Positions 265-18,400 of a stretch of 64,000 nt of DNA are shown in pieces. This stretch comes from Natrinema sp. CBA1119 (GTDB lineage: Archaea; Halobacteriota; Halobacteria; Halobacteriales; Natrialbaceae): NCBI RefSeq assembly GCF_002572525.1, contig NZ_PDBS01000006.1:1-64000 (forward strand), in the 5' to 3' direction. The notes below the pieces were generated by a model. It had not been told where the DNA came from. It saw only the letters and a program-made list of their open reading frames with translations, and made no database searches. The first letter of the stretch is position 1; each line of letters opens with the position of its first letter. A program made the translations under genes and the position numbers.

Positions 265-387
265 TTCAACTCTCATTACATCGCCGACGGAATGCTGTCA
301 AACGTTTCCGGTTAGGAACCACGCTCAACGAAGTAGATCACACTCAGGACAACGAGGTCGGAAGTGGGACTACATTGGCGGCAGATA

Positions 388-421
388 TGTATTAAAGGAT
401 AGAGATACACGTAGGATAATG
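388..421 (+). promoter_or_regulatory. TATA promoter for the 421 metallopeptidase gene
   Basis: TATTAAAG at about 390-397 is roughly 25-28 bases before the GTG at 421, the spacing expected for a leaderless haloarchaeal transcript. An ATG two bases upstream (419) opens only an 18-codon Lys-rich frame, so GTG is preferred. Confidence 0.5.
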
Positions 422-3400
422 TGTCCCAAAAAGAAGAAAGTAGTTCAAAAGAGAAAAGGGCAAAGAAAAGCCTGAGTAGACGGATAGGGGGACTGGTAGT
501 CCTCATTGCAGCAATTAGTCTAGTTAGTGCTGGGTCTCTTGCAGGAGTAGTCCCTGATGCATCATCGGATACTACTCTATCGGGAACTGATGAGGGAGGT
601 CTTGAAACACATACCCGCCAAGCAGACAACACTATTGGGAGTAAGGAGGAAAAGGCTCGAAACGGAGATTACACCCGCCAATACGCATCACATAACTCAC
701 CTAGAAAAGAACGACTGATTGAGTCATCGTTTAAATTTAACGAGACTCCTTCTGTCGGAGAATCTACAAAGGTAACAGTAACAATCCAGGCACTCAGACC
801 CTTGGAGAATGTGTCGGCCAAAATGAGTGACCATATCTATATCAATGCAGATGAGCATCATCGCACATTTGGTGAAATGTCCTCCGGTGATACAAGGGAG
901 ATTACAACCACGATCACTCCGACGAAAGAAATCAAGTACCAAATTCCATATATAGTAACGGGAACGGCATACAACAGCCAGTTCACACGCACCGCTATAG
1001 TGAAGTTCAATCTTGCCGATGAACATACCGTGAATACTGCAACTACATCGGGTACCCTTTCAGAGCAAGCAGCGACGTCGTCTCTTGCTACGGCAACTAC
1101 AAGCAGTACCATCTATTCTACCGCCTCAGGACAATCGTCTGAGAACTCATCCGTCATCGGCCAGTCAAAGTACTTAGCAAACGGCCAGCTACATCCTATG
1201 CGACAGGTGACTGTCGAACTATATGATAATGACACCAGTACTGATGAATTGGTCGCATCAACAACGACGGATGATCAAGGGAACTTCTCATTTGAGTTCG
1301 ACCCGGCCCAAGATGTCTCTTCAAATGCAGATATCTACGTGAAAGTCACTGCAGAAAACCCTGCTGCATATGGAACAACTGCCAATAGGGATCAGTACTC
1401 GACATTTACTAATACAACAAACAATGTAAGCACTGGGAGTAAGATAAACTACGGCGTAGTCCACCCAGTTGAGAACAATTCAGTTTGGGAAGCAATTGAT
1501 CATACGCTTGATGAACGGCGATACATCCACGAAAACACCGACGGATGGGAACGCTCTCCTGTTCGTATTGAGTGGCCGAACGGAGACTGGCCGCATCTTT
1601 CCTACCGTTACTCTCTTTTGACGGGTGAAATAGCCAAAGGTACAGAGGCAATTCGACTCCCGGAGAAGACTGTCGCTTCATGGGATAGAAGGACGGTCCT
1701 CCACGAATACGCACACGCAGTAATGATAGCTGGCTACGATTGGGATCGGGATAATTTCCCGGATACTGGCACGTATAACTGCCATGTTCCCTATAGCGAA
1801 ACCGACCCCGGATATGCGCTTCGGGAAGGGTGGGCTGAGTTTATGCCAGCGGCTGTCGACGATAATCCCCAGACACTTCGCCATCGGGGAATGAATATCG
1901 AAACGAACCACTGGTACAACGTAGATGCTTCCCCTCCCTGTTATGGACCCGGTGGTGATACTGGCGATATGGATGGGAATAGCGTTGAGGGGAGTTATGC
2001 AAGTATCTGGTTTGACATAGTTGATACTGGCCATGCTGAGGACGAATCACTAGAAAAATCCTATAATACGGTTTTCAACACCGTGATGGATAACAACGCA
2101 CAGGATATGTATGACTTCTGGGCTCAGTGGGAACATGGTAACCGGGAGGAACTTCGTCAAACGTATTCTCGATATGGAATTCCCGTTACTCCGGCTACTT
2201 TCGATGTCTCGATCGCGGAGACAAATTCTCCGGTCGTAGCCGGTGAAACAGTTGAGATTACGGCAGAAGTCGGTAATATCGGCGATGCCCCTGGAAAGAA
2301 GAGTATCGCACTTGATGTCGGTAGTAAAACGAATGTTGATACGCAGACAGCCTCACTCGCTAGTGGCGAGAGTGAAAAAGTAACTCTCACATATGAAACA
2401 GAAGAGAATGATATCGGCAAGCAGGAGGTTGTTGTCCACAGTGCAAACGGTTCAGCTTCAACGACGATCAACGTGACCGAGCCGTCGACGCCAGCATCCT
2501 TCGACGTGACAATCGACGATACTACCAGTCCCGTCATTGCCGGTAACTCCCTTGATATGACGGTAACCGTCACTAACACCGGCGATCTTCAGGGTGTCAA
2601 AGATATTAAGTTGCTGGTTAATGGTAGCGTCGTTACCGTTGAGGAGGACGTGACGTTGGCCGGTGGAGCCAACACAACGCTCACGTTCAACTACGATACT
2701 AGTGACATAGACCCAGGAAAGTACGATGTTGAAGTTCGCAGTATAAACGATTCAGCTTCAACGACGATCAACGTGACCGAACCGCCGACGCCAGCAACCT
2801 TCAACGTGACAGTCGACGATACCATCAGCCCAGTCACTGCCGGTAACTCCCTTGATGTGACGGCAACCGTCACTAACACTGGCGATCTTCAAGGCGTCCA
2901 GGATATTGAATTCTTATTCAATGGTAGTATCGACACTATCGAAAAGAATGTGACGCTGGCTGATGGAGCTAACACAACGCTCACGTTCACCTACGATACT
3001 AGTGACATAGATCCAGGAAAGTACGATGTTGAAATTCGCAGCGCGAATGATTCAACTTCTACGACGATTAACGTGACTGAGTCGCCGACGCCAGCAGCCT
3101 TCGATGTGACAGTCGTTGACACTACCAGTCCCGTCACTACTGGAGACGCTCTCAATGTGACAACAACCGTCACTAACACCGGCGATCTCGAAGACATCCA
3201 GGATATCAAGTTGCTATTCAATGGTAGCGTTGTTACCGTTGAAGAGAATGTGACATTGGCCGGTGGATCCCATACAACATTCACATTGACTCACACCACC
3301 GGTGGCGTAGACCTAGGAAAGTACGAGATTGTCGTCCGCAGCGCTAATGATTCCGCTTCAACGGCGATCAACGTAATTGACGATGGACCAAGTGTTGCTG

Positions 3401-3549
3401 ATTACGCCAACGAGAACGGTGTGGTCAACATGGATGGTCTTCGAAGCGCCATCGACGATTGGCGTACTGACGATACCTCAATCAACCTGCTGCGCAATGT
3501 CATCGACCACTGGCGCACTGGCGAACCGGTAGAGCTAATTGATCCCTGA
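421..3549 (+). CDS. Secreted HExxH metallopeptidase with four CARDB-like domains and C-terminal dockerin-like module
   Basis: This 1042-aa exported protein has a Lys/Arg-rich N-terminus and one hydrophobic signal segment (residues ~24-45). A carboxypeptidase-regulatory-like beta domain follows (~240-310). The zinc-peptidase core has HEYAH at 428-432 and REGWAE about 37 residues later, whose Glu suits the third ligand of a gluzincin. Four ~100-residue CARDB-like repeats rich in N-glycosylation sequons follow (~590-985). It ends with the module GLRSAIDDWR...LLRNVIDHWRTGEPV that recurs in four other exported proteins here. Cleavage of an extracellular protein or peptide is inferred; the substrate is unknown. 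Its 3' end overlaps the convergent gene at 3535-5337 by 15 bases. No sorting signal other than the module is visible. Confidence 0.85.
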   Translation: MSQKEESSSKEKRAKKSLSRRIGGLVVLIAAISLVSAGSLAGVVPDASSDTTLSGTDEGGLETHTRQADNTIGSKEEKARNGDYTRQYASHNSPRKERLIESSFKFNETPSVGESTKVTVTIQALRPLENVSAKMSDHIYINADEHHRTFGEMSSGDTREITTTITPTKEIKYQIPYIVTGTAYNSQFTRTAIVKFNLADEHTVNTATTSGTLSEQAATSSLATATTSSTIYSTASGQSSENSSVIGQSKYLANGQLHPMRQVTVELYDNDTSTDELVASTTTDDQGNFSFEFDPAQDVSSNADIYVKVTAENPAAYGTTANRDQYSTFTNTTNNVSTGSKINYGVVHPVENNSVWEAIDHTLDERRYIHENTDGWERSPVRIEWPNGDWPHLSYRYSLLTGEIAKGTEAIRLPEKTVASWDRRTVLHEYAHAVMIAGYDWDRDNFPDTGTYNCHVPYSETDPGYALREGWAEFMPAAVDDNPQTLRHRGMNIETNHWYNVDASPPCYGPGGDTGDMDGNSVEGSYASIWFDIVDTGHAEDESLEKSYNTVFNTVMDNNAQDMYDFWAQWEHGNREELRQTYSRYGIPVTPATFDVSIAETNSPVVAGETVEITAEVGNIGDAPGKKSIALDVGSKTNVDTQTASLASGESEKVTLTYETEENDIGKQEVVVHSANGSASTTINVTEPSTPASFDVTIDDTTSPVIAGNSLDMTVTVTNTGDLQGVKDIKLLVNGSVVTVEEDVTLAGGANTTLTFNYDTSDIDPGKYDVEVRSINDSASTTINVTEPPTPATFNVTVDDTISPVTAGNSLDVTATVTNTGDLQGVQDIEFLFNGSIDTIEKNVTLADGANTTLTFTYDTSDIDPGKYDVEIRSANDSTSTTINVTESPTPAAFDVTVVDTTSPVTTGDALNVTTTVTNTGDLEDIQDIKLLFNGSVVTVEENVTLAGGSHTTFTLTHTTGGVDLGKYEIVVRSANDSASTAINVIDDGPSVADYANENGVVNMDGLRSAIDDWRTDDTSINLLRNVIDHWRTGEPVELIDP

Positions 3550-3560
3550 ACCGGTTCGCC
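3520..3560. terminator. Inverted repeat at the 3' overlap of two convergent genes
   Basis: GGCGAACCGGT (3520-3530) is perfectly inverted at 3550-3560 with a 19-base spacer spanning both stop codons. Read in either direction an arm encodes part of the WRTG motif of that gene's dockerin-like tail. It could fold in both transcripts and serve as a bidirectional terminator or stabilising hairpin. Confidence 0.5.
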
Positions 3561-5337
3561 AAGCCCCAATAACCGCTCTCAACTTGGTGGTTGATACCGT
3601 TCCTGCCCGCCAGTCGTCAATTCCTGCTTGAAGCCCAGGAGTGTCAACGATTCCTTCCTCATTCTCGTACTCACTGCTATTTTCTGTGACGTTGATCGTA
3701 ACCGTCGCAGTGGCAGTACCACCATTACCATCACTCACCTCATACGTGAAGGAGTCTGTCCCAGAATAGCCTGATTCGGGCGTGTAGGTGAATGAGTCAC
3801 CATTTGTCGAGACCGTCCCGTGGTTTGGGCCACTTGTTACAGCATATGATAGCGAGTCACCATTCGGATCGCGTGCATCGAACGTTCCCGTCACTGGCGT
3901 CCCTTCACTTGCTAAGACTGAGACATCATTAGCACTTGGACCACTGCCTGCTTCTCTGACAGTGACCGTCCATGGGAAGTCCTCGCCAGTACCGGACTCA
4001 CCTTCAATATCAACATAGACAAAGCCGTCTTCTTCGACGGTCACCTGTGTCGAGTCACTAGATCCCTCCTCATTGCTGAGGTAGCTACTTCCGCCCGGAT
4101 ATCTGATGTCTGCGTGTACGTCTTGGCCACTATTTTTCGACAGGCCAATATCTAGTTCTGTACTGCCTGAAACGGGAATTTGGAACGCGTCCAAGTCATC
4201 GTTGGAGTTGATCTCTCCTGTGTGTGACCCGAGACTAACCTGATTATCTGCCTCGTCGTTCCACTGATCACGGACACCTGTATCGTTTACCAAGACTTCC
4301 CATGAGAAGTCATCGCTAGCACCAGGTTCCCCTTCAACATCAACATAGACAAATCCATCTTCTTCGACGGTTACCTGGTCTGAGTCTCCTGTCCCACCAT
4401 CGTTCCGGAGATAACTACTTCCACCCGGATAACTAATATCCGCATAGACTTCTTGACCGATCTGTTTTGACAGACTTAGATCAATCACGCTATTGGCTGA
4501 GACTGGCACCTGGAACGTGTCCAGATCATCGTTAGAGTTGATCTCTCCTGTGTGTGACCCGAGGCCAACCTGATTATCTGCCTCGTCATTCCACTGATCA
4601 CGGGCACCTGTATCGTTTACCGAGACTTCCCATGAGAAGTCATCGCTAGTACCAGGTTCCCCTTCAACATCAACATAGACAAATCCATCCTCTTCGACGG
4701 TTACCTGGTCTGAGTCTCCTGTCCCACCATCGTTCCGGAGATAACTGCTTCCACCCGGATAACTAATATCCGCATAGACTTCTTGACCGATCTGTTTTGA
4801 CAGACTCAGATCAATCACGCTATTGGCTGAGACTGGCACTTGGAACGTGTCCAGATCATCGTTAGAGTTGATCTCTCCTGTGTGTGACCCGAGGCCAACC
4901 TGATTATCTGCCTCGTCATTCCATTGATCACGGACACCTGTATCATTTACTGAGACTCCCCAGGAGAAGTCCTCGCTAGTACCGGGTTGTCCTTCGACAT
5001 CAACATAGACGAACCCGTCTTCCTCGATAGTTACTTGAGTTGATTCTCCAGTCCCACCATCGTTCCGGAGGTAGCTGCTTCCACCCGGATAACTAATATC
5101 CGCATAGACCTCTTGACCCGCTTCTTTTGACAGGCTGAGATCGATTACACTATTTGATGAAACTGGAACCTGAAACTGATCGCTGTCATCATTGGAGGTA
5201 ATCAACCCTGTGTGTGAACCACTGGTCGTCTCCTTGTGACTGTCGTCAGGCCAGTCATCTGTCTGTGCCACTGTGGGTGCTACACTGATCGATAGCAGCA
5301 CTACAACTGCTATCGATATGATAATCAGTTTCCTCAT
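3535..5337 (-). CDS. Secreted four-repeat beta-sandwich protein with cadherin-like domain and dockerin-like module
   Basis: The 600-aa product starts with a clear signal peptide (MRKLIIISIAVVVLLSIS, ending near VAQ). Four ~105-residue tandem repeats follow, each beginning SHTG.I.SNDD..FQVPVS and containing YPGGSSYL and EEDGFVYVDVEG. The pattern resembles the pre-peptidase C-terminal (PPC) beta-sandwich fold. The middle repeats are almost identical in DNA, so recent internal duplication is likely. An Ig/cadherin-like domain (~445-535) with YTPESGYSGTDSFTYEVSDGNGGTA precedes the C-terminal module GLQAGIDDWR...KLRAVIGAWRTG. No catalytic motif is seen; an adhesive or structural surface role is inferred. 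Confidence 0.8.
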   Translation of the reverse strand: MRKLIIISIAVVVLLSISVAPTVAQTDDWPDDSHKETTSGSHTGLITSNDDSDQFQVPVSSNSVIDLSLSKEAGQEVYADISYPGGSSYLRNDGGTGESTQVTIEEDGFVYVDVEGQPGTSEDFSWGVSVNDTGVRDQWNDEADNQVGLGSHTGEINSNDDLDTFQVPVSANSVIDLSLSKQIGQEVYADISYPGGSSYLRNDGGTGDSDQVTVEEDGFVYVDVEGEPGTSDDFSWEVSVNDTGARDQWNDEADNQVGLGSHTGEINSNDDLDTFQVPVSANSVIDLSLSKQIGQEVYADISYPGGSSYLRNDGGTGDSDQVTVEEDGFVYVDVEGEPGASDDFSWEVLVNDTGVRDQWNDEADNQVSLGSHTGEINSNDDLDAFQIPVSGSTELDIGLSKNSGQDVHADIRYPGGSSYLSNEEGSSDSTQVTVEEDGFVYVDIEGESGTGEDFPWTVTVREAGSGPSANDVSVLASEGTPVTGTFDARDPNGDSLSYAVTSGPNHGTVSTNGDSFTYTPESGYSGTDSFTYEVSDGNGGTATATVTINVTENSSEYENEEGIVDTPGLQAGIDDWRAGTVSTTKLRAVIGAWRTGSGIN

Positions 5338-5418
5338 ATTTGAAACAGAGAAGCTAAAATCATATTAGTTTTATCTTACTACACTATTTTCACATCTAAA
5401 GCAGTGTTTATACTCGGT

Positions 5419-5484
5419 GACGATCCCGACCGGGAGGAGTACGTCCGGATCCAGAAGGCGAATGAAGCGATGCTCGAGGAGTAA
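5419..5484 (+). pseudogene. 3' remnant of a small conserved protein gene
   Basis: Twenty-one codons (DDPDREEYVRIQKANEAMLEE) end in TAA. The same ending, ADPKLAEHKQIQKAKDAM, closes the small gene at 9293-9433, and both are followed by similar DNA (GAGTAACTCCG). The 5' part is missing, cut near 5410. Confidence 0.45.
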
Positions 5485-5512
5485 CTCCGAATGTCTACAC
5501 GGGAACAAACGC

Positions 5513-5825
5513 TTACTCGATCTCTGTCTCGGCTGGCAGGGGCTTGGCTGCTATTGTCGCTAGTTCAGGCTTCAAGACTGCCTTGAGTTTAAGGGCCCCC
5601 TCAGGGAAGGCACGATAGATCGCAATCGCCACACCCATTAGAAGAGCCTGTCCTGCGCGGCCCACATAGTCTATAACCTGCTGTGTTAGATCGAGGAGGT
5701 TTTCGATACCTATCCCACCAATGCTGAGTTCTCCTTTATTTACGTTCTTGTACACCCGATACAGGAACTTTGCTGGAAGACCGCTGGCAAGTCCCGTGCC
5801 GTCATTCGGTGAGATAGGTGGTCAT
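5513..5825 (-). pseudogene. Small membrane-associated hypothetical protein, probable frameshift near its start
   Basis: The open frame 5755-5513 (80 aa, GTG start) contains a long amphipathic-to-hydrophobic stretch, QVIDYVGRAGQALLMGVAIAI. The better promoter lies further up. A TATA-like TTTATTTA at ~5845-5852 sits ~25 bases before an ATG at 5825 that reads MTTYLTE and then stops. Removing one T at that stop joins it in frame through DGTGLASGLPAKFLYRVYKNV to the open frame. I infer a one-base insertion in a ~104-codon gene. It is last in the minus-strand cluster after the metallo-beta-lactamase and DUF3006 genes. Confidence 0.4.
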
Positions 5826-5948
5826 ACCAATTGTTGTGGAGTTGTAAATAAAAGCGTTCCGTGAGGTACAGGCGACTCGTCTCGAGTGTTTTCACACGCC
5901 GATCACCTCCTCAAGCACAACGTCGGGCCCGCCAAGGCCGTTAATAGC

Positions 5949-6224
5949 TCACTCTTCATCCAACCGCTTTGAGAGACGGTCGAACTTCGCCTCAAGTCGG
6001 GCACGGCGTTTCTGTTCGCGTTCTGGCTGATACTCGAGATCGGCAAGCCCACCACCTTCGAGGCGAACGGTGAAGAGCGCCCCCTCGTGCTGCCCCTCTT
6101 CTGGCAACGTCTCGATATCGACATCCAACTGCTCAACGACACCGCCCTCATCCTCGAGGAGGATGACTGCCGTGTCGCCGTCGACGACCCGGTCCACGAC
6201 GCCGGTAAACGTGCCGTCCATCAT
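5949..6224 (-). CDS. DUF3006 family protein
   Basis: This 91-aa protein has the DUF3006 pattern: GVVDRVVDGDTAVILLEDEGGVVEQLDVDI followed by LPEEGQHEGALF, a small beta-barrel-like fold, then a charged C-terminal helix (REQKRRARLEAKFDRLSKRL). In bacteria and haloarchaea DUF3006 genes often lie next to secreted ComEC-like metallo-beta-lactamases, as here. Its ATGATG start overlaps the TGA of the upstream enzyme gene, so translation was probably coupled. With that enzyme broken, expression may now be reduced. Molecular function is unknown. Confidence 0.8.
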   Translation of the reverse strand: MMDGTFTGVVDRVVDGDTAVILLEDEGGVVEQLDVDIETLPEEGQHEGALFTVRLEGGGLADLEYQPEREQKRRARLEAKFDRLSKRLDEE

Positions 6225-6430
6225 CCTACGACTGGCGCTGCAGCCCCATCAATTGTGGCAGGATCGATGGTAGGCGAACTCCCCTGTGTGGCTGTGGGCT
6301 TGGCATCGATCAGGTCGGCTGGATTGGTCGAGAACGTCTCAGCGGACTCAACGGTTATATTGGTGCCATCAGTCATCACGACAACATCACTATGGACGCC
6401 GGTCCAGTATGTCCCAATGCCCATCTCACC

Positions 6431-6610
6431 GGCTCTGGTGAATCACTAGGCGGCGTCGACTTCCGGAAATCAGACCCGGCAACTTGAGGCGATACTCTGG
6501 GACAATTTGGTCACTATTCCGTCGGGAACTGTGATAGCAGTGTGATTGGGTTCCGTCACAGGTCCGCTAAAACCACTCAACATAACGCAGTATGGCGATT
6601 CACCAAAGCC
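6431..6610. mobile_element. 180-bp MITE with 16-bp terminal inverted repeats
   Basis: The left end GGCTCTGGTGAATCAC and the inverted right end GGCTTTGGTGAATCGC match at 14 of 16 positions. The element is flanked by an 8-bp target duplication, ATCTCACC (6423-6430 and 6611-6618), and has no coding capacity. The 8-bp duplication and GGCTCTG-type end would suit mobilisation by an IS6-type transposase, but I cannot assign the parent. It interrupts the metallo-beta-lactamase gene. Confidence 0.75.
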
Positions 6611-6660
6611 ATCTCACCAAAGCCATCTCACCAAAGCCATCTCACCAAAGCCATCTCACC
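6605..6660. repeat. Four tandem 14-bp units at the MITE border
   Basis: AAAGCCATCTCACC occurs four times in a row. The unit equals the last six bases of the MITE plus the 8-bp target duplication. Fourteen is not a multiple of three, so any gain or loss of a unit shifts the reading frame on the gene strand. Confidence 0.85.
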
Positions 6661-7789
6661 AAACCGTTGGAGTACCTCGTCATGCGGGTGGTCATACTGA
6701 CTATCGTAGCCACTCGAGATCACTGCGGTCTTCGGATCAACGATATCTATGAACGGCTGCGTCGAGCTGGTGGACGAGCCGTGATGGCCCGCCTGGTAGA
6801 TGTCGGCATCTAGTTGGTCACCCCATTTTGCAACCATCCGTTCTTCAACGGCCGCCTCTGCATCACCAGTCGTCAAATAGGTTGTCTCGCCATACTCGAT
6901 GGTGAACGCGAGACTGTTATCGTTGAGGTCGTCATTGGACTTGTTCTCAGGCGGGTTGAGGAATTGAACGGTAGCATCCCCGAACGCGATCGAATCGCCC
7001 TCGGCAACCTCATACAGGTCAACGTTGTGTTCGTCGATCGCGGTGAGATAGTCCTCGTACGTCTGTGAGGTAGCCGGGACACCTGGATCATATACGGCAC
7101 CGACGCCGTCGCCGTTCGTTTCGAAGTGGTTGATCACTTCCGCGTGTCCGCCAATGTGATCGGCATGTGCATGTGTCGTGACCAGATGGTCGATCCGCGT
7201 GATACCTTGCTCCTCGAGGTACGCGATGACACCCGAGCCGTCTTGTCGCCAATAGCCCGAATCGATGAGCATCGTCTCACCGGAGGGGGCGACTACCAGC
7301 GTCGAATCGGCTTGCCCAACGTCGATATGGTGGATTTCAAGGTCGCCGTCGGAGCCAACTGGCTCACCGCTTCGCCAATAGGAGATTACCTCGCGTAGCA
7401 AACCGGTATCGATTTCCCCATTTCGCCAATCGCCAATCGCATCACGCAGCCCGTCTGTTTCGACGGTATTGGTTTCTGTGTCAGCGTAATCGTCTACTGC
7501 CAGTTCCGTTGCGTTCGTGCTCTCCGCCGCAACAACACCAGGTCCGCAGATGGATCCAAGGAGTACCACTAAGACGACTATCGTGGCCTGCTGGCGCTGT
7601 CGTCTACTCCCACGCTGAACTGTAATTGATCGTAACTCTCCATTCAGGACATCATATCAAGGCTATTGGTTGTTGAAGGTTCTCGTCCCGGTACTAGATT
7701 CCACAATGAACACCGCCGCCGATCGCTCCTCGAGCACGACACTGAGACACGCGAGGCCGCTGGCACACTCCAGATCGACATCTCCCGGT

Positions 7790-8047
7790 CTACGGCTCCC
7801 CAGCTACTTCGAGACGCGCTTCGAGTTCTTGGATCCGACACTCCTGTGCTAACAACACGGAGATGAGAAACGGCTCCATTACTGTCATCTCGTTTTGGAT
7901 CCCGGCGGCATCCGCAAACTGTCGCGTGTCGTCGAATAGCTGATCAAACCCGTCGCGATACTGCACCCGCAGTGCCCGCCGGAACGGCTGCCAGTCCTCC
8001 TCGAGGTGACGCAACTGGTCACGATAGGTGGGGTTCGTCTTCCCCAT
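7790..8047 (-). CDS. Small haloarchaeal helical protein (DUF8156-like)
   Basis: The 85-aa protein MGKTNPTYRDQLRHLEEDWQ... has a conserved N-terminal GKTNPTYRDxL motif, a central helical region and a C-terminal coiled coil (LLAQECRIQELEARLE). It resembles short haloarchaeal proteins of the DUF8156 type that recur beside genes like its upstream neighbour. Its ATG directly follows that neighbour's TAG with no spacer, so the two were one transcription unit. Function is unknown. Confidence 0.65.
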   Translation of the reverse strand: MGKTNPTYRDQLRHLEEDWQPFRRALRVQYRDGFDQLFDDTRQFADAAGIQNEMTVMEPFLISVLLAQECRIQELEARLEVAGEP

Positions 8048-8764
8048 CTATGCCACCTCCTGAATCGAGTCCCCGGTGATCGGCGTCGGATACGCCGGCT
8101 CACGTACTTCGAGGATCTGCTTCCAGAAGGTGAGCGTGGTTTGGAGCATTCCATTCCCGACCGGGTAGACCAATGACTCGAACTCCTTTCCGATAAACCG
8201 CGCCCCCTCATCGGTCTCCAGTCACTCGATCCGCTCGTCGACGAGGTTGTCGATCGGCGCCGCGAACTCATCATCCCGGGCCTTCGAAACCAGAACCGGA
8301 CACTCATATCGACGAGCCGCAGCTGCCAGCCGGGCGAGCGCCGACACGACCATCCGCTCGGACTCGTCTTCACCGAGATCGTCGTCGCGGTAGAGGCCGT
8401 CCACCGCCGGCGCCACGATCAGGCCGACGTCGTCCCGGTCGACGGTTGCGAGTGTCCCGTAGTCAGGATCCTCGAGCAGCCTCGAACATAGCGTGTGGTG
8501 CTGGTAGGCAGTGAATGCACGGGCGGTCTGGATCTTCTTGAGAACGCGGCGGCTCGGTGCAACATCTGCGAGTGGCTTTGTCTGTGCGTGGCCGAACGTA
8601 TCGATCCACCACGCAGTTCCTGGCCATTCGAGGAGGAGATGGTCGACGGCGAGTGCGTGAAACGCGCCGGGAGACGATGACTCCAGGAGCGTGATGCCAT
8701 TCTCGAGGGACGGTAGGTTGGGAATTTGGTCTATCGACGATGCGACGTCTCTGTTTGTACCCAT
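8048..8764 (-). pseudogene. RecA/KaiC-fold-like haloarchaeal protein with premature TGA
   Basis: From ATG 8764 the frame reads MGTNRDVASSIDQIPNLPSL and carries LALAVDH-like and DDVGLIVAPAVDGLYRDDDL segments, then SERMVVSALARLAAAARRYECPVLVS. This alternates beta strands and helices in a way that suggests a degenerate RecA-like core without a Walker A motif. It stops at TGA 8224-8222. The same frame continues without another stop for ~57 codons (LETDEGARFIGKEFESLVYP...) to TAG at 8048, abutting the next ATG. A single nonsense change is the simplest explanation. The start was chosen because upstream residues are low-complexity. Confidence 0.65.
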
Positions 8765-9292
8765 ACCTCCAACTGGATTGTCTCGATGGTTAACTGTTCG
8801 AGGGCGGTTTCCGAAAGTTCCGATTATCCGATTTCGTGCATAGGAGTGGGGAGAGCCTCGCTGAATAGCCATCATCGAGCCGGTTCCGATTCTTCCGATA
8901 TCGCCATGAAAACGGAATGGGGATGGAGTCTGCCTCCGGATGGGGTGGAGGAGAGGGGGAGTGGAGGCGTCCTATTGTTTGTGGTGATGATCATTAACTA
9001 TTTGTGACAGCATCAACAAGCCAATAAATTGATAACAATATACTCACAAGGGACAGACGGCGGGGGAGAGGATTCAGTCGTTGCCTGACAAGATCCGCCC
9101 GACCCGAGACAGACGGTCCCTCGCTATTCGAGATCGAATCACGTTTCGACGTGAAGCCAATTGTCACGCACATCGGTCTCGGTCCCTCCCCTGGCGACAG
9201 ATCACCTCCAGGGGATGGGGGCTCAACGCTGGCCTCTGGCCGGCGTTTCTGTGACGCGAGAGTTTATATACGGAGCCGTGGCAACGCCGGTG
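8765..9292. other. Intergenic region without a supported gene
   Basis: No convincing coding frame is seen. The section around 8985-9050 is AT-rich. A TATA-like TTTATATA at ~9263-9270 lies ~25 bases before the ATG at 9293 and fits a promoter for the small broken gene there. Confidence 0.5.
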
Positions 9293-9433
9293 ATGTCTCT
9301 CACCAATCGACAGGAGGATCTCCTGATCGCCGTCGCACTGACCGAGTTCAGCGTCCACTAAGAGCAGGCCGATCCCAAACTCGCCGAGCACAAGCAGATC
9401 CAGAAGGCGAAAGACGCGATGATGAGGGAGTAA
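9293..9433 (+). pseudogene. Small conserved helical protein with in-frame stop
   Basis: The sequence reads MSLTNRQEDLLIAVALTEFSVH, then TAA (9359-9361), then EQADPKLAEHKQIQKAKDAMMRE and a normal stop, 46 codons in all. The well-spaced TATA box and the related 3' remnant at 5419-5484 argue that this was a real gene. The internal TAA probably replaces a Tyr or Gln codon. Confidence 0.45.
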
Positions 9434-9443
9434 CTCCGTGTGT

Positions 9444-10763
9444 CTATTCTTCCACGCCAGCGAGTTCGAAGGCTTCCGACAACGAGTCAAAGTGGCGATA
9501 ATAGTTGTCGTGCTATGGTTTCCATGTTCGCGAATATCCGTCGTTCGAACAGGCTTCCCATGCTCGTCCGCCAACCGCTGGAGATCGGCTAACAGCTCGT
9601 CGCGTGTTGTCGGCCCTTCGGACACAGAAGCAGGGTCATAGCCGGCGGCCTCGAGCGCCGCTGTCCACGATCCAAACCGATCTCGGTAGGGTGACGCCGA
9701 GTACTGCCCATGTTCGGTGATGTCGGCGATCGTGGGACGACCATCAACCGTGTCGGCGACCCGCTCGAATTCAGCCAGGAGCGTCTCTGTATCGATATCG
9801 CCGGTTGCACGTTCCTGACCAGAGTCGAGTCCTGCCGCCTCACGGGCTGTTGCGAGTGACTCGAAGGTCCGGAAATATGTCGAGATGCTATATTGGCCGT
9901 GTGTGTCGATAACCGATGTGGTTACCGGCTCGCCATGTTCGTCGGCGAGTCGTTGGAGGTCGGCGAGTAATTGGTCACGGGTCACTGGCGCAGATGGTCG
10001 GTCACAATCGAAGCCAGCAGCCTCGAGCGCATCGTACCAGGAGTCAAACCGAGCCTGATATGTCGACGGCGAGTGCTGGCCGTGGTCGATCATATCTGAC
10101 ATCGATGGTGGTTGACCAACCTCATCACCAAGCTGCTGGAGTTCGGCGAGCAACTCCTCGGTCTCGATCTCGGGTGTGCCGGCCTCGGGGCCACGCTCGA
10201 GCCCGGCCGCCTCGCGCGCATCTGCTAGTGAGTCGAAGAGCGAGTAATAGTGGTTCGTATGATATTTGCCATGGTTGATGATATCGCTCGCAGCGACTGG
10301 CTCGCCATGGTCGTCGGCAAGCCGTCGAAGGTCGGCCAGTAGGTCCTCACGGTCTGGGTCCTGCTGTACGTCTTGCTCATCGTCGAGTCCGGCCGCTTCA
10401 AGGGCAGGTCCCAGGATCCGAAGCGATCCCGATATGTCGGCGCGGAATATGAACCGTATTCGGTGACATCCGTCTGTGAGGGTGCGCCATCGACCTGCTC
10501 ACTCACATCGCGAAGATCGGCCAGCAATGCCTCGGTCTCGATCCGTGCTTCGTGTCGGTCTCGATCCGTGCTTCGTGTCGGTCCAGCCCGCGCTCAAGGC
10601 CCGCCTCCTTGCGCGCCTCGAAGAGTGAGTCGAACTCCCGATGGTACGGCGTTGGACTGTACTGCCCGTGCTCTTTGATGTCTTCGCGCGTCACTGGCTC
10701 GCCATGTTCGTCGGCAAGCCGCTGGAGTTCGCTGAGATACTCATCGTCTGTTCGTGTACCCAT
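9444..10763 (-). pseudogene. Seven-repeat homing-endonuclease-associated (HNH_repeat) DNA-binding protein, frameshifted
   Basis: From MGTRTDDEYLSELQRLADEHG the conceptual protein (~430 aa) is seven ~52-residue repeats of the homing-endonuclease-associated type: helix, G.P....I..HG.YS...Y...F.S, helix ending AGL. Two subtypes alternate A-B-A-B-A-B-A. A has DEHGEPV and FDSL..AREAAGLERG; B has DGxPT and FGSW..ALEAAGYD. No HNH or GIY-YIG nuclease domain is visible. The frame is broken by the 23-bp duplication at 10535-10580, by an indel near 10405 (FGSWD) and by one near 9515. In the restored last frame it ends ...SLSEAFELAGVEE at 9444. Sequence-specific DNA binding is inferred from the family. 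Confidence 0.75.
10535..10580. repeat. Perfect 23-bp tandem duplication
   Basis: Two identical 23-base units (10535-10557 and 10558-10580, starting GTCTCGATCC) lie inside the repeat-protein gene. Twenty-three is not divisible by three, so the duplication itself shifts the frame. Confidence 0.9.
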
Positions 10764-11175
10764 TGTCGCCCCATTTGAAATCTCACAAGAAAGGTGTTTC
10801 TGTGGGCCACCAAGCCCCAAGTTGATCAATTTCTCCGAGATTCCTCCGTTCGCATACCCGTGAAATGATATTTGCGTCATTAGGAATTGGGTACACATAC
10901 TCAGTACAGAGACTATTTCTAGTTGTACGCACGCGTATCACCCCCGCTCCGTCGGGTGGTATGATCTAGTTAAAGACTGTTCTTTACTGCTAATGGTCTA
11001 GTGGGGTAGTATGCAACAACAATTAAGTTCCAGTAGTGTAGTAGAGTTATCTGAGGCAGAAGGTAAACGAAAATGACCAGACAACTGTGGCGGAAGTATA
11101 GCTTCGCAAGTACACTGCACGACACCTGCCCGACATGATGCGGGTACCCAATGCCGACTGGTGGTTGTCAAATCC
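10764..11175. other. Divergent intergenic region
   Basis: This separates the minus-strand repeat gene from the plus-strand ribbon-helix-helix gene and must hold promoters for both. A 21-codon frame (MQQQLSSSSVVEL...) begins at ~11010 but has no supporting context. I see no RNA gene or mobile-element end. Confidence 0.4.
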
Positions 11176-11349
11176 ATGAGCGCTGAAATGACGGAGTCAG
11201 ATGACGGGGACAATATCACCCGTACGACGATCAAGATTGACGATAAGATTTGGCGACGTGTCCGGTCGCAGGCCATCCGCGAAGACAGGCGGGTCTCGGA
11301 GGAACTCGAGCAGATCCTCCGGGAGTACTTCGACGAAGAGGAGCCATGA
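11176..11349 (+). CDS. Ribbon-helix-helix (CopG/Arc-type) DNA-binding protein
   Basis: From ATG 11176 the 57-aa product has an acidic tail of ~15 residues, a beta strand NITRTTIKID, then two helices (KIWRRVRSQAIREDR, VSEELEQILREYFDEEE). This is the standard ribbon-helix-helix layout of small dimeric repressors. A GTG at 11161 would add five residues. It ends 43 bases before the large glycoprotein gene on the same strand and could be its regulator or an orphan antitoxin; no partner toxin is adjacent. Confidence 0.7.
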   Translation: MSAEMTESDDGDNITRTTIKIDDKIWRRVRSQAIREDRRVSEELEQILREYFDEEEP

Positions 11350-11392
11350 TGTATCGACTAATGAGTAACACACAACCCTATATTAACAATCA

Positions 11393-14300
11393 ATGACAGG
11401 CGATAATACGACAGAGAAGTTGCGCGCAGTACTTCTCGCGACCATGATGGTCATCTCGGTCGTCGCGATGACCACCGCGTTCGCAGGCAGTGCGGCCGCA
11501 GCGACAAATGTCAGCTCAGGCAATCAGGATGTGGTGTTGGGTGCCGAAGCCCAATCTCTAGGGACGAGTACAACATCGTTCACCATTTCCGAAACTACTG
11601 ATGATTTCGGAGGATCTGGCTCCGGTGAAATCACCGTTCCGGACGGAGTAACATTCAATCAGACTCAGTCTGACTTGACAGTACGGCAGACCAGCAGCGG
11701 GTCGCTCAGCAATGTCCGGTTTACCGACTCCCAGACGATCAAGTTCGACTATAGTGGGTTCAGTTCCACTAGTGCTGATTCTATCAGCTTCGGACAGCTC
11801 TATATGGATGTGAGTCAGGACGCCGGATCATCCTTCAAGGTTGACACCCGCGTGGGGGTTAATTCTCAATCACTAACGATCACCACCCATCAGGCATCTA
11901 TCTCTGGCCCCAGCGGGAGCTTCGGAGCGGCATCGACCGGGAATAATATTGGAACTGTCACGGTCAGTACCGCAACCGTCGATGGTCAGATCGGTAACCA
12001 GACGGACCTGATCATCTACGCGAATCAATCGAACGGAGTTACGCTCGATACGAGTGTCGATGTTGCATCGACGATTACGGACAATAATGATAACGTGAAT
12101 GAGTCGGCAGCGACGATCTCGGAAGAGAAAATCGTCGTGCCGGTCACGAGTGACTTTGCGGCCGGTGACTCGGTGGATCTAGATGGCTTGGCCGTCAACC
12201 TGACTGCCGATGCCAGTGATTCCGCGCTGACCGTGGAAGCAACCCCTGCCAGTGATACTGGAGGATCACTCACCTCGACTACTGGCAATCAGATCGCGGT
12301 CACAAAACCAGGTGTTAGCCTTGGGTCTTCGTTCGACCTTGCGGTTGGACAGGAGGGTCAGGCTACTGGTGATACGATCACGGTCACCTCGTCTGCAAAT
12401 GGTGACATCGGTGATGGGACGAATGTGACTGTGATGCTGAATGACAGTGACGTCACGTTCGATACCTCCGGTACAGTCACTGCTACGGTTAACAATGTGA
12501 CTGGACCGAATGGGGAGACTGCTGAAAGCAAGAATGCACCAGCAGTCGTTAACGAAAACAACCTGACTGTGAACGTCTCTGGTGACTTTGAAGCCACTGA
12601 CAATGTTGTGTTCAGTGGCTTCTCGCTGAACGTCACGAACCAGCCTGCTGACGGCACTGATGTCAAGGTCAGTGCTCAGACACAGTCTTCACCGAATGGC
12701 GCTGTAATCACGAGTGAAGACACTGGGACGTTCATCACCCTTCAGCGTCCTGACTATACCTACAACGGTGATACCGTTGACGTGGACAACGACGGTGAAG
12801 ACCAGAACGCTCTGAAGGATATTACCGTCGCATCGGCGACTGACAGTGATATTGCCGATAACACTAATATCACTATCAGCATTGCAGACGGTTCTGGAGT
12901 GACGTTCGACCAAAGTGATAGTAATACTCTGACTCTTGGCTTTGATGACACTGCAACACAGGTTAACCCTGCGGTCATCAACGAACAGAACGTCACCGTA
13001 GAAGTCAAGAACTTCGACAGTTCTGGAGAAGCCGTTGTCTTCCAGAACATCGGTGTCAACGTCACGGCGGACGCGACGAACACCACGCTCGCGGTGACGA
13101 CGAACACCAGTGATTCGGAGGTCACGACCGTCCTCTCGAATAATGTCGTCGTCGTCAACGAGGTCTCACCGACCCAGATCGCGGCTGACCCGGATGTCTC
13201 TGATGGTGATGACTTCACCAACGGCAACGATGTCAGTGCGACCAAGCCGCAGGTCACAAACACGATCACCGGGCAGGTGCGTCTTCAGGATGACACCGGC
13301 GCCAACTTCGGCGCTGGAGACATGAACCTTGAGATCGTCTCGACGCCTGAAGGATCGAGTGGTGCGTCGCTCAACACGAGCACTGTCACCACGGCTTCTG
13401 ACGGCACTGCCGACTTCAACTTCACGGCTGGTGACAAAACTGGTGACTACGTGGTCAACGCCACGATCGCTGGTACGTCCACGGGCGTGAACATCACGTA
13501 TACTTCCCAGTCGGGTCCCGTTGCTGACATCACTGTCACCAATGTCGAGGATGCGATCAAAGGAACTGCGACGAATGACAAGCAGACCGCAGTCCTGAAA
13601 GTTCAGGCGCTGGACGCACAAGGTAACCCTGTCAGCAGTTCCGTTGACACGTCATTCACGATTAGCAGTCCTGATGCAGAAAACTTCGCCGTGGATAACT
13701 GGGTCAACAGTACCGGTCAGTTAGCCGATGGGACGGCAACCGGTGAAAGTATCGACGCCAGTACTGGCAACTTGAAGCTGGCAGATAATGGTACTGCGTA
13801 TGTCAGCTTCACAGATCCGGCCGCGGAAGACGTGACGATGGAAGTCGAATATGGCTCGAGTAGTGACTCTGGCACGGTGACCATCTACGACAACATCGGT
13901 CAGGTCTCGCTTGAGCTCAACGAATCGTCGGTCATCCGTGGCGATACCGTCCAGGCGGACGCCACGATCAAGCAGTCCGACGGGACGGTCATTACGGTCC
14001 CGGACATCACGGTCAACTTCGACGATAACAGTAACAGCAACACGACGGTCAACAGTGCAAGCGCTGACACGAACGGCGATGGCGTCGCAAGCGTCACCGT
14101 CTCCGCTGACAGTGCTGGCACGTCGACCATCGACGCTGTTACCAACCTCAAGAAGGGCAGTGCAACCCTCACGATCGAAGACCCGACACTCACCGTCTCG
14201 ACTGACGTTGATTCGGTGACGGTCGGCGAGGAGACCACGGTCAACACCACGGTCACCTACGAGAACAACGGGAGTGCCGTTGAAGGTGCCACGCTGAACG

Positions 14301-15175
14301 TGACTGGTGCCGGCGTCGACGTTGCCGACCAGACCACGGACGCGAACGGCACTGCACAGTTCACGGTGAACGCTAGCGAAGCTGGTGACATCACGGTGAA
14401 CGCAACGCTCGCCGGCACGAACATGGGTCAGGCGACAATCACGGCTGAACCCGCCGCACAGCCTGACATCTCCGTTGACTACGACGTCGACAGTGAGACC
14501 GTCGAAGTCGGCGAGAACGTGACTGTCACGGCGACGGTCACCAACGCAGGCGACGCAGCTGGCTCGGCTGACGTGACGTTCAACGCGGACGGCACGGAAG
14601 TTGAGAACCAGTCTGTTGACGTTGACGCGAACAACAGCACCACCGTCGAGTTCACCACGAGCTTCGACAGTGCTGGCTCGCACAACGTCTCGATCAACGA
14701 CCTCAACGCGACTGAGATCACGGTGCAGGCACCTGCATCGTTTGACGTCAGCTACGACGTTGACAAAGAGAACATTACGGTCGGCGAGACGCTCAACGTG
14801 ACCGCCACTGTTGAGAACACCGGCGACCTCAGCGGCGAGACGACAGTGTACTTCCACGCGGCTGGCGACGAGTACACCAACACGACCGTCTCCGTCGATG
14901 CGGGTAACTCCACGGAAATCGTCCAGGAGATCTACCTGCCCGAGGAGGCCGGCTCCTACAACGTCTCGGTCAACGACCTCGAACCGACGGAGATCACCGT
15001 CGAAGAGGCCGCGAGTGACGAACCGACTGTCTCCGACTACGCCAACGAGAACGGCGTCGTCGAGCTCTCGGGTCTCAGCACCGCCATCGACGACTGGCGC
15101 AGCAGTGAGATCGGTCTCGGTCTGCTGAGCGACGTCATCGATGCCTGGCGTAGCGGTGAATCCGTCGACTCGTAA
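11393..15175 (+). CDS. Large S-layer-type surface glycoprotein with CARDB domains and dockerin-like C-terminus
   Basis: The 1260-aa protein begins with the haloarchaeal surface-glycoprotein signal peptide (KLRAVLLATMMVISVVAMTTAFAGSAAA), shared with the 19456 S-layer gene. The body is Asp/Thr/Ser-rich beta-sandwich sequence with dozens of N-x-S/T sequons. Big_1/Ig-like invasin-type domains lie at ~580-1010, followed by two CARDB domains (~1030-1205). There is no PGF-CTERM tripartite tail. It ends with GLSTAIDDWR...LLSDVIDAWRSGESVDS. A surface protein held by a module interaction rather than by archaeosortase anchoring is inferred. A CCCTATATTA box lies just upstream of ATG. Confidence 0.85.
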   Translation: MTGDNTTEKLRAVLLATMMVISVVAMTTAFAGSAAAATNVSSGNQDVVLGAEAQSLGTSTTSFTISETTDDFGGSGSGEITVPDGVTFNQTQSDLTVRQTSSGSLSNVRFTDSQTIKFDYSGFSSTSADSISFGQLYMDVSQDAGSSFKVDTRVGVNSQSLTITTHQASISGPSGSFGAASTGNNIGTVTVSTATVDGQIGNQTDLIIYANQSNGVTLDTSVDVASTITDNNDNVNESAATISEEKIVVPVTSDFAAGDSVDLDGLAVNLTADASDSALTVEATPASDTGGSLTSTTGNQIAVTKPGVSLGSSFDLAVGQEGQATGDTITVTSSANGDIGDGTNVTVMLNDSDVTFDTSGTVTATVNNVTGPNGETAESKNAPAVVNENNLTVNVSGDFEATDNVVFSGFSLNVTNQPADGTDVKVSAQTQSSPNGAVITSEDTGTFITLQRPDYTYNGDTVDVDNDGEDQNALKDITVASATDSDIADNTNITISIADGSGVTFDQSDSNTLTLGFDDTATQVNPAVINEQNVTVEVKNFDSSGEAVVFQNIGVNVTADATNTTLAVTTNTSDSEVTTVLSNNVVVVNEVSPTQIAADPDVSDGDDFTNGNDVSATKPQVTNTITGQVRLQDDTGANFGAGDMNLEIVSTPEGSSGASLNTSTVTTASDGTADFNFTAGDKTGDYVVNATIAGTSTGVNITYTSQSGPVADITVTNVEDAIKGTATNDKQTAVLKVQALDAQGNPVSSSVDTSFTISSPDAENFAVDNWVNSTGQLADGTATGESIDASTGNLKLADNGTAYVSFTDPAAEDVTMEVEYGSSSDSGTVTIYDNIGQVSLELNESSVIRGDTVQADATIKQSDGTVITVPDITVNFDDNSNSNTTVNSASADTNGDGVASVTVSADSAGTSTIDAVTNLKKGSATLTIEDPTLTVSTDVDSVTVGEETTVNTTVTYENNGSAVEGATLNVTGAGVDVADQTTDANGTAQFTVNASEAGDITVNATLAGTNMGQATITAEPAAQPDISVDYDVDSETVEVGENVTVTATVTNAGDAAGSADVTFNADGTEVENQSVDVDANNSTTVEFTTSFDSAGSHNVSINDLNATEITVQAPASFDVSYDVDKENITVGETLNVTATVENTGDLSGETTVYFHAAGDEYTNTTVSVDAGNSTEIVQEIYLPEEAGSYNVSVNDLEPTEITVEEAASDEPTVSDYANENGVVELSGLSTAIDDWRSSEIGLGLLSDVIDAWRSGESVDS

Positions 15176-15260
15176 TCACACCTAACTACTGCTCCACCGC
15201 GGATCAGTCCCTATCCGATTGCAGTTGCGGTTCCATTTTTTCGACGTGCGCTACGCTCCA
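15176..15260 (+). terminator. 3' UTR hairpin and T-run after the 11393 gene
   Basis: CGGAT (15200-15204) pairs with ATCCG (15213-15217) and is followed by GCAGTTGCGG and six Ts at 15236-15241, an archaeal intrinsic-type terminator. The whole ~75-base stretch resembles the region after 18605. Confidence 0.6.
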
Positions 15261-15395
15261 GAGCGATAGCGTCGGGTATCGCATAGACAGTTCTCTCACA
15301 TCAGTTGGACACCGCGCTCTCCCAGCCGAGTAGGCCAAGCGTCACGGTGTTGCTCGAAAGACCGAGATCTTCCCTCTACTTATGGAATAATATGC

Positions 15396-15411
15396 AGAAA
15401 TATTTATTATC
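15396..15411 (+). promoter_or_regulatory. TATA box for the 15439 gene
   Basis: AAATATTTATTATC ends about 28 bases before ATG 15439, correct spacing for a short-leader or leaderless transcript. Confidence 0.55.
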
Positions 15412-15438
15412 ACAACTGATAGCCTATGTAGTATATCC

Positions 15439-18400
15439 ATGGACGGAATCAGCGAGTCGAGTACGCAGGCCAGAAAACAGCGACAACCATGTTTCCGAGG
15501 GGTTCGTATTGGCCTTTTCATCGGATTACTAACGATAGTTCTTCTTGGCACTGCCGCAGCCGGAGCTGCTGTACCTGCAACCAATGCGACAGCGATAGAC
15601 ACACAGATAGTCGACGATCCAGCGGCGTGGCCTAACACGGGATACGATGAACGGAATAGTCGTGTCAGCGACGGAACGCCGCCTGCGGAGGCGCCTGATA
15701 GAGCATGGTCATTTGACCTAGTTGAGAACGACACGGAGCGGCTGACTGATCCGATTATTGTCGAAGACACGGTTCTATTTGGAACAGAGTGGTCAAGTTC
15801 GGACACAGAACACGGATCACTCACTGCAGTTAACCTTACAACAGGTGATCAACGATGGTCGTTCGGTGTCAATACCGAACAGAAGTTTACCTATGATATT
15901 GCGACCGACGGAGAGACGGTCATAATCGGTGAGAACGATGCGCTCTATGGCGTTGATCTCAAAACTGGGACTCGAGAGTGGCAGAAGGACCACTCACGGT
16001 TTACGGGATATGGAATTACTTCTCACGAGGGGGTCGTATATACGCGACTCGGAGATCGAGGGAGCGTGCACGCGCTTGATCCGACTAATGGGACTTCTCA
16101 CTGGAACACGCCACTCCCCAATATCGATGAGCAGACTGGCGAAACGAATGCACCGGCTGTCGGAAATGGGTCCGTCTACGTTGCCGGTTCGTGTTCCGTC
16201 TCCGATAGCGAGCGAAAATTCCTCTGTATTACTGCGCTGGACCGCGATACTGGGAACGTCAAGTGGCAGACTGTCAGTGATTCCGTAGAGTCAACTGGCA
16301 GCATCAGTGATCCAGTACTCGCGGACGGGACGCTCTATGTTCGCCTTGAGAAAGACTACCTCCGGGAATCGCCACAGCTGGTAGCGTTTAATATCTCGAC
16401 TCGATCTGTCACTGACAGCCGCTCCGTCGAGTCGGGGGCACCGATAGCAGTCACCGAAGAGACGATCTTCACGACCGATTCTAATGGAATCGTTGCCATC
16501 GATCGTGAAACGACTGCGACCAGATGGACGAACGAAGGAACAACATCCGTCGTCGTTGGTGAGCAGGTACTCACGGTTGACGGAACTCAGCTTCGTGCAC
16601 TGTCGTCGTCTTCAGGTGACGAGCAGTGGTCCACGTCGGTCTCGACCTCGAACATCGATGCGCTCAGTGCAGGCATGGCTGCCTCGAACGGAACAATCGT
16701 TGTGCTTGGGGAGATATCAGTGACGAGTATCGTGGCACTGCGGTCGCATTCACAGGGACAACAACTCCATCTGAGGAAATCCTGGTCGAGCCCGAGAATC
16801 CACAAGTCGGAACACCGGCCCGCTTCAACGCAAGTAGGATCACTGGGACGAACTACAGGTGGGACTTCGACGAAAATGGAACGACCGACGCTCGTGGTGC
16901 CGTTGTCGATCATCAGTTCGACACGTCTGGTAGGTTCAACGTGACGGTTACCGTCGAGACTGACGGTGGAGCGAGGCGGTTCGAACGGAGCGTTCGTGTC
17001 ATCGAACCGTTGAACGTCGATCTGTCCGTGGAAAACAGGCACCCACAGCCCTACACGGATGTCGATCTCTCTGCCGCAAACAGTACTGGAACGGGGACAC
17101 TCACCTACAAGTGGTCTAAAAACGGGGATTCGCTTCATCGCTGTGAGGAAATGGAGTGTACAGTTCCTTTGGGAGGTGATCCCGTCACTGTTACTCTCGA
17201 GGTTCGAGACGAAGCGGGGCAAGTGACGACGGAGTCCGTTCGGATCGAACCTATTGCGCTCGATCTGAACACGTCTATCGATGGAACAGCTACATCGAAT
17301 CTCCATTATGACGAAACAGTACTTCTGAACGAATCATTCCAGATACGACCGGATACAAGTCAGCTATCTGGGGATATTTCCGTTCATAACCTCTCGGTTG
17401 TTGGACCAGCAACCGCAACAGGGACGATACCAGCGGAGATGACTGCAACTGAGGCTGGGCGAATTGAGATGACGATCGCATACGATGTTGACTCGGTCGA
17501 TGAGCCAGTCAACCGAACGGTTGAACTCACCGCGGTTGAGTTGCGGGAGTCCGACAAAATGTTCGAGTATTCGTTCGAACCAGGTGCAGATACACGGCAG
17601 GCACGTGCCTCTTTCGCCCGCTTGCAAAGCGATCTCGTGGAGAATGACCTGCGAGACGTCTATCGACAGATCGAGCAGCGACAGGACGGACTTCCCGAGA
17701 CAATCGTGTTCACTGCAGCGGATCCAGACCGACTCGATGACAGGAAGGAGGGATTAAACGGGTATGCGAGCTATCCAAACGAGATCTATTTAGATATGGA
17801 AGCCCACGAGAGGAGCGCCTTCTCGACGTACCGTCTCGAGGAAACCGCACGCCACGAGATTGCCCACATTGGTCAGAGCTATTTAGATGCTGAGAATCGA
17901 GATGACTGGAACTTCCTCATCGAAGGACATGCGGAGTTCGAGTCGAGTCTGACAGCTGAGACGATCGAGAACAAGCCCCCGAAAGAGGAGTTCCTGGACT
18001 GGTCATGGGAGCGTGACAAATATATGCAGAGCGCTGCGTTCGTCGATGCCTACTTCGCGGAGTATGGTCGGCAAACGTTCCTCGAGATGATGCGCAACTC
18101 ACAGGGAACAGATATGCGAACAGAATTCAAGGAAGCCACTGGCGAATCATTCGACAGTTTCTACGACCGATGGATGTCGGGAGGCCCGAACGATCCCGCG
18201 ACCCGCCGCGGCGATCTCCCCAAGGTCGCGTTCACCTATGTGGATGGTCAACTCCATGCTGAGGGACTCAGTTACACCACCGCAAATGTGATTGGAAATT
18301 GGGACCTTGACGGAGACGGTGAGACCGATGCTCGTGGAGAGACTGTCGACTGGCAACCGTCGGAGGCCGGACAGTATCCAATTACGCTGACGCTTGACGA

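Follow-up and report, generated by a model that had tools for sequence, protein, structure and literature searches.

A broken gene for seven alternating PF18780 repeats in Natrinema sp. CBA1119 and its nuclease-free relatives

The stretch of DNA analysed here, hereafter the window, comprises 64,000 nucleotides of Natrinema sp. CBA1119 (contig NZ_PDBS01000006.1, positions 1 to 64,000). It carries a broken gene for a protein of seven tandem repeats of ~54 aa, which the original prediction, made from the DNA letters, took for a possible modular DNA reader. What would such an array do, and does the order of its repeats mean anything?

Seven repeats of two types

The features of the locus are collected in Table 1. 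The span first proposed for the gene proved exact by its start codon and stop, and mapping of the frames confirmed the three frameshifts, including the perfect 23-bp duplication. R1 is read in a first frame and most of R2 in a second; a third takes over within R2 and continues until two thirds of the way into R7, whose end returns to the first. In a Pfam scan of all window pieces, PF18780 was the only family above its curated cut-off, with the R4-R7 piece matching at E 4.1e-65 and the other three at E 9.6e-13, 4.9e-10, and 4.3e-16; the bit scores of the four pieces (216.4, 40.1, 59.4, and 48.7) all exceed the gathering cut-off of 26. The predicted lack of a nuclease domain was borne out, as the same scan detected no HNH or other nuclease domain and no PLD nuclease, SF2 ATPase, and SRA as in SauUSI-like enzymes in these pieces, and the frame stops right after R7.

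Table 1. Features of the repeat array and its lesions (window coordinates).
Feature	Position	Strand	Basis or remark
Broken gene, seven-repeat PF18780 protein, (AB)3A	9444..10763	minus	start codon 10763-10761; last pre-stop codon ends 9447
R1, A-type repeat	10587..10748	minus	PF18780 match, repeat comparison, A profile
R2, B-type repeat, split across two frames	10376..10536	minus	PF18780 match, repeat comparison
R3, A-type repeat	10190..10351	minus	PF18780 match, repeat comparison, A profile
R4, B-type repeat	10001..10162	minus	PF18780 match, repeat comparison
R5, A-type repeat	9818..9979	minus	PF18780 match, repeat comparison, A profile
R6, B-type repeat	9629..9790	minus	PF18780 match, repeat comparison; model superposes on SauUSI (7clg) residues 616-669
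R7, A-type repeat, split across two frames	9447..9604	minus	PF18780 match, repeat comparison
Perfect 23-bp tandem duplication, R1/R2 interval, frame-shifting	10532..10577 (copies 10532-10554/10555-10577)	minus	
Single-base frame change inside R2	about 10405..10408	minus	
Single-base frame change inside R7	about 9510..9514	minus	

The strict A-B-A-B-A-B-A order that had been proposed for the seven repeats is clearly recovered. Repeats of the same parity share on average 56.2% identity (47.2-61.1), against 38.7% (26.4-48.1) for those of different parity, and the observed parity split is reached by 144 of 5040 repeat orders, the minimum possible for 4+3. Repeats of one type differ mainly at third codon positions (e.g., 15, 14, and 34 of 54), which indicates that the window repeats diverged under selection on the protein. 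The linkers between the 50-column cores measure 11-12 aa before the measurable A repeats and 13 aa before R4 and R6.

A profile built from nine A rows, three of them window A repeats, gives R1, R3, and R5 scores of 97.5-102.7 bits, the best window B repeat reaching 68.8. Over 391 haloarchaeal genomes it finds 11 places with at least 97 bits, the next place scoring 70.7. Six of the 11 are R1, R3, and R5 in two copies of the array, and the remaining five lie in plasmid proteins of the form B-A-B or A-B. When about 400 repeats were compared, the seven nearest to R1, R3, and R5 were the A repeats of seven plasmid proteins, six of them B-A-B with frames of 180-191 aa and the seventh (L040) a 135-aa A-B form; B repeats resembled the generic repeats of many arrays. 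As judged from sequence, A is a discrete, real subtype. At the blastn level, matches of plasmid DNA to the window array were limited to two B-A-B genes, of Halomontanus rarus. The simplest history, as we infer it, would be that a B-A-B-like gene, a relative of the intact plasmid genes, was expanded by multiplication of the A-B pair to (AB)3A and then broke.

Order of this kind is found in other arrays too. Among 48 arrays with at least four repeats, the period-2 signal was strongest in the window array (15.9 points), followed by a bacterial locus, L170 (15.7), with single p values of 0.029 and 0.020, respectively, uncorrected for the 48 tests. L170 (L170:3203-6937, CAIOYH010000092.1, Kiruna_bin-04925) consists of two adjacent nuclease-free ORFs of 8 and 11 repeats, ordered cap-Y-X-Y-X-Y-X-X and cap-Y-X-Y-X-Y-X-X-X-Y-X, that is, in alternation with some breaks. 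Its X and Y repeats share only about 28-47% identity, its linkers are type-specific (7-9 aa before Y, 15-16 aa before X), and it alternates independently of the window array. A haloarchaeal gene pair with 8 + 4 repeats (L073:895-3324) looks like three copies of a four-repeat unit, the four-repeat period occurring twice within one ORF with a further four-repeat ORF alongside, and in some giant ORFs the PF18780 repeats are paired by linkers of 3-4 aa. Because of these three cases, we consider ordered subtypes a habit of the PF18780 family, of which two-type alternation is one form. The building blocks of two repeats that had been suggested for the window array do recur, in L170 through its type-specific linkers and in the giant ORFs through their paired repeats. 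We also considered a shared role of positions 14 and 18 in both alternating arrays and rejected it, as the overlap of distinguishing columns was at chance level.

It could be argued that the alternation has no functional meaning and simply records how a two-repeat unit was duplicated in tandem. This is a real possibility, given that strict alternation is rare (the window array and L170 are the clearest of the 48 arrays, at uncorrected p values) and that the L170 linkers travel with the repeat type, as they would in a copied unit. However, the A and B types have not been homogenised although the copies have diverged to about 56% identity, and A has kept its own residue set in two gene families and is flanked by B in intact three-repeat proteins, so that we are inclined to see more than a footprint in it.

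Frame changes and duplicated DNA

Contig C3 has the array once more, at 100% identity across 1317 bases and with the same lesions. C3 and the window contig (C6) share about 22 kb at 99.96-99.99% identity, involving window positions 1-16962. As the shared block runs across the ends of C6, this contig is probably circular; the block may be a real duplication or an assembly effect. The window also contains a 15.6-kb tandem duplication (23679-54843) at 99.994% identity. The duplicated copies differ solely by single-base gaps, four in total, three of them in the about 22 kb common to C3 and C6 and one in the 15.6-kb repeat. The gap at 16707 coincides with the break of a long ORF into two overlapping frames, and of the two copies of the 15.6-kb repeat one has the longest helicase-like ORF entire, the other in pieces. 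Given such gaps, the single-base lesions of the window array call for caution, and we treat both as candidates that need reads to be certified.

The gaps and split ORFs of the duplicated regions are what would be expected if the single-base frame changes were assembly errors and the gene were intact save for the 23-bp duplication. We find this unlikely, as both copies of the array have the same lesions, three lesions in 1.3 kb are far above the observed gap rate, and a 23-bp duplication is atypical of read error. Going by its sequence, the window copy should no longer yield the complete protein.

Predicted fold and variable residues

An AlphaFold model of R3-R6, built on a 52-sequence alignment, reached a pLDDT of 81.5 and a pTM of 0.39, with four helices per repeat and with poorly placed linker stretches of pLDDT under 50 (a run without alignment, at pLDDT 42.9, was discarded). 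With such a pTM and such linkers, the modelled repeats look like beads on a flexible string, not a rigid superhelix. The idea that successive repeats contact successive half-turns of DNA is not favoured by this loose-linker model.

The best solved match to one repeat is SauUSI residues 616-669 (7clg; Z 8.3, rmsd 1.4, 54 residues, 15% identity), and nearly all the others among the 50 matches listed are TetR DNA-binding domains (Z 4.2-6.5), with the proviso, noted by the structure-alignment tool itself, that Z below about 13 may reflect mere shared helical arrangement. Foldseek gave no solved-structure match at E 0.001 or better, and sequence searches of solved structures with three profiles returned no homologue of the repeats or of phrog_14115, the gene partner of the plasmid proteins described below. 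A locus of Saccharibacteria (L174:2720-4561) encodes an SF2 helicase, with SauUSI as its best solved match (E 7.2e-43), fused to three PF18780 repeats, which sit C-terminal to the helicase, where SauUSI carries its four-helix subdomain. The SauUSI paper assigns this subdomain to a coupler and gives it a possible allosteric role, without describing it as a DNA reader (PMC7913695). Going by the models, we consider the fold link between the PF18780 repeat and the SauUSI coupler likely, not proven. This link and the nuclease-free ordered arrays appear undescribed in the open-licence literature searched, which also yielded no experimental account of PF18780 and no DNA-binding experiment with it. 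What we found in print is a table entry in a modelling study (PMC8078820).

Which residues vary among the repeats? Among about 400 of them, the most variable columns are 20, 35, 31, 28, 32, 21, 26, 42, 17, and 24, which fall mainly in what the model shows as helix 2 (columns 20-26) and helix 3 (columns 31-38). The window sequence and 51 of 58 four-repeat stretches went into a four-repeat alignment. Among 11 four-repeat arrays, selected for the resemblance of their same-position repeats, the variable columns best conserved by array position are 20, 24, 31, 32, 35, and 42; their mean excess, for six columns named after ranking, is 0.22, compared to 0.061 for all columns, and 60 shuffles of the repeat order gave no more than 0.041. 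Tested as a block, the variable columns 20-38 were not significantly more position-specific than the other variable columns (1570 of 20000 swaps). In helix-turn-helix proteins, positions 1, 2, and 5-6 of the recognition helix are the classic places of base contact. Variation between positions with constancy at each of them fits what a position-by-position DNA reader would show. The original suggestion of a modular DNA reader is thereby upheld in part: a predicted HTH-like fold and position-specific variable residues fit it, on the strength of model and sequence.

The repeat might also read no DNA and serve, as in SauUSI, for structural or allosteric coupling or for contacts between proteins. 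The best solved match, the joining of a SauUSI-like helicase to three repeats in L174, and the giant repeat proteins in PbeA/PbeC gene clusters (see below) all point in this direction. However, the pairing of the repeats with DNA-acting domains (HNH, SF2 helicases, and zinc fingers), their TetR-like HTH similarity, and their array-position-specific residues agree better with contact to DNA, along which SauUSI itself moves (PMC7913695). We therefore regard the pure coupler as doubtful.

Nuclease-free arrays, their neighbours, and known systems

PF18780 is widespread. It was matched in 100 of the 125 genomes of the taxonomic family of the window (Natrialbaceae), and relatives of the R3-R6 stretch were found in 198 of the 391 genomes of the class Halobacteria; of 72,556 plasmid records, 61 had one, always below 60% identity. 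Further loci, 57 in genome contigs and 13 in viral contigs (confirmed out of 88 and 35 pattern matches, respectively), belong to haloarchaea, other archaea, and many bacterial groups. The phage collection contained no match to the window array; a six-repeat relative matched five phage records weakly (Bacillus, Geobacillus, Parageobacillus, and Alicyclobacillus).

ORFs were collected from a set of 215 loci, of which 20 were skipped (repeats of the window region or contained loci). The 109 non-redundant ORFs with at least two repeats were split by the tail after the last repeat into 54 with at most 60 aa and 50 with longer tails, leaving out five open-ended ORFs. None of the 54 short-tailed arrays, which include pieces of broken genes (e.g., both L067 pieces and two L080 pieces), matched an HNH model, nor did any have an HNH ORF just downstream. 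Among the 50 long-tailed ORFs, which include the other copy of the window array (L085) with no real tail, 26 matched PF01844 HNH, 14 HNH_5, and 37 a tail model. Nuclease-free arrays have 2-11 repeats, commonly 3-4, and the long-tailed forms 2-6, commonly 2-3. In other words, about half of the complete non-redundant ORFs (54 of 104) are without nuclease and, since none of the 54 matches HNH, its absence is a common form and not an oddity of a broken gene. As for intact homologues, those bearing A repeats agree with the original prediction, being nuclease-free and B-A-B or A-B in order; the wider family goes half way against it, as about half of it is fused to HNH and strict A/B order is rare.

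Some architectures deserve separate mention. L034 and L037 combine C2H2 zinc fingers, PF18780 repeats, and an HNH-like tail in one chain, and L076:1321-2853 has five repeats followed by a tail of ~210 aa with a sub-threshold phage-integrase match only (E 0.02). Three giant proteins (L216:3073-8628, L219:5816-9931, and L217:4534-9255) are 1372-1852 aa long with 2-14 PF18780 repeats; two of them adjoin PbeA and PbeC genes, and in the third the chain itself includes a PbeA-like helicase. The published PbeB and PbeD have a mere 66 and 152 aa (PMC6459918), so that the giants do not belong to the named Pbe genes.

In four annotated plasmids (L078, L079, L081, and L082) the B-A-B gene overlaps the 3' end of an upstream gene of ~264 aa, and a type IV pilin gene faces away from this two-gene unit. 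The protein encoded upstream is phrog_14115, whose sole match in phage records is gp09 of the pleolipovirus SNJ2, adjoining an Orc1/Cdc6 gene. A divergent pilin-like gene together with a phrog_14115 gene is common to these plasmids and SNJ2 (L090:3694-5271). All seven phrog_14115 places scoring 194-209 bits in the 125 genomes are followed, at most about 80 nt downstream and in the same orientation, by PF18780 repeats, and the best-scoring homologue of the window array elsewhere, with four repeats (G302), also follows such a gene. Beside the window array itself there is no phrog_14115 gene, the nearest relative in the genome being on another contig (C1:1338770). By look phrog_14115 might be a degenerate LAGLIDADG protein, an idea that was dropped; Pfam gave no match for the protein. 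From the neighbourhoods, the A-type proteins would belong to plasmid or virus biology, although this context does not give their function.

The array might finally be what remains of an HNH homing or free-standing endonuclease after loss of its nuclease, a DNA-binding half without a function of its own, as the name of the family, the HNH and tail matches of the long-tailed ORFs, and the annotation of some plasmid relatives as HNH endonucleases would have it, but we find this quite improbable given that the 54 short-tailed arrays, archaeal and bacterial, are free of HNH and richer in repeats than the nuclease forms, and that A was found, over the 391 genomes, solely in nuclease-free proteins encoded by intact genes in a conserved two-gene unit.

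The explanation that we favour, and consider probable, is that the window holds a decayed nuclease-free PF18780 array, a relative of the plasmid B-A-B proteins and a putative modular DNA binder. Each repeat would fold as four helices, with helices 2 and 3 forming a TetR-like helix-turn-helix and helix 3 acting as the recognition helix, as predicted by the model. Each repeat might then dock on DNA on its own and read bases through columns 20 and 24 (helix 2), 31, 32, and 35 (helix 3), and 42, while flexible linkers of 11-13 aa would string the repeats along a composite DNA site. A and B would differ in contact surface and packing, which could be why the A-B pair was the unit copied. Having no nuclease, the protein would not cut; as a regulator or a replicon-binding factor, it may bind to a long site on a plasmid and occupy or bridge it.

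More speculatively, the PF18780 arrays of archaea and bacteria might be DNA readers of a modular, nuclease-free class that has so far escaped recognition, the order of the repeats spelling the DNA site as it does in programmable arrays of other kinds. The subtypes would come in definite order (A/B here, X/Y in the bacterium, four positions in the haloarchaeal family) and a few variable residues of helices 2 and 3 would let each repeat read a DNA segment of its own; taken together, this is a proposal that we put forward with little confidence. If nuclease-free PF18780 arrays do read DNA repeat by repeat, they would make up a natural family of modular DNA-binding proteins that is new, compact, and possibly open to programming; those of haloarchaea would presumably tolerate salt. 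In any case, the name "homing endonuclease associated" hides the nuclease-free half of the family, and the SauUSI fold link and the giants beside PbeA/PbeC speak for an involvement in anti-virus and restriction systems. The window copy, being a decayed gene, is of value mainly as a lead.

How does the array compare with what is known? The plasmid B-A-B proteins (e.g., WP_226043310.1 of Natrinema sp. DC36, annotated as "hypothetical protein") have the only other A-type repeats found, and like the window array they flank A with B and have no nuclease; they differ in being intact, with three repeats and a phrog_14115 gene upstream, whereas the window array is broken, has seven, and is without that neighbour. 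With PF18780 HNH_repeat (homing endonuclease associated repeat) the array agrees in length, motif, and passing of the curated cut-off, but the name implies an HNH nuclease, which the array does not have, and the array has two alternating subtypes. In an HNH homing endonuclease the HNH would be on the same chain. The coupler subdomain of SauUSI (residues 618-669, PDB 7clg) has four short helices, as modelled for one PF18780 repeat, but is present as a single copy in an ATP-dependent restriction enzyme, while the window repeats are in tandem. The helix-turn-helix of the TetR DNA-binding domain has an order of helices similar to that of the modelled repeat (Z up to 6.5 over about 54 residues), but TetR is a homodimer with a ligand-binding dimer domain, which PF18780 arrays do not have, their repeats being in tandem in one chain. 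Finally, TALE-like, Myb, and zinc-finger arrays are tandem modules that contact DNA and would work alike, although they differ in repeat length and fold. TALE-like repeats have 33-35 aa and a two-residue code, and the window repeats are about 54 aa long, their 50-column cores being spaced by 11-13 aa; we know of no code for PF18780.
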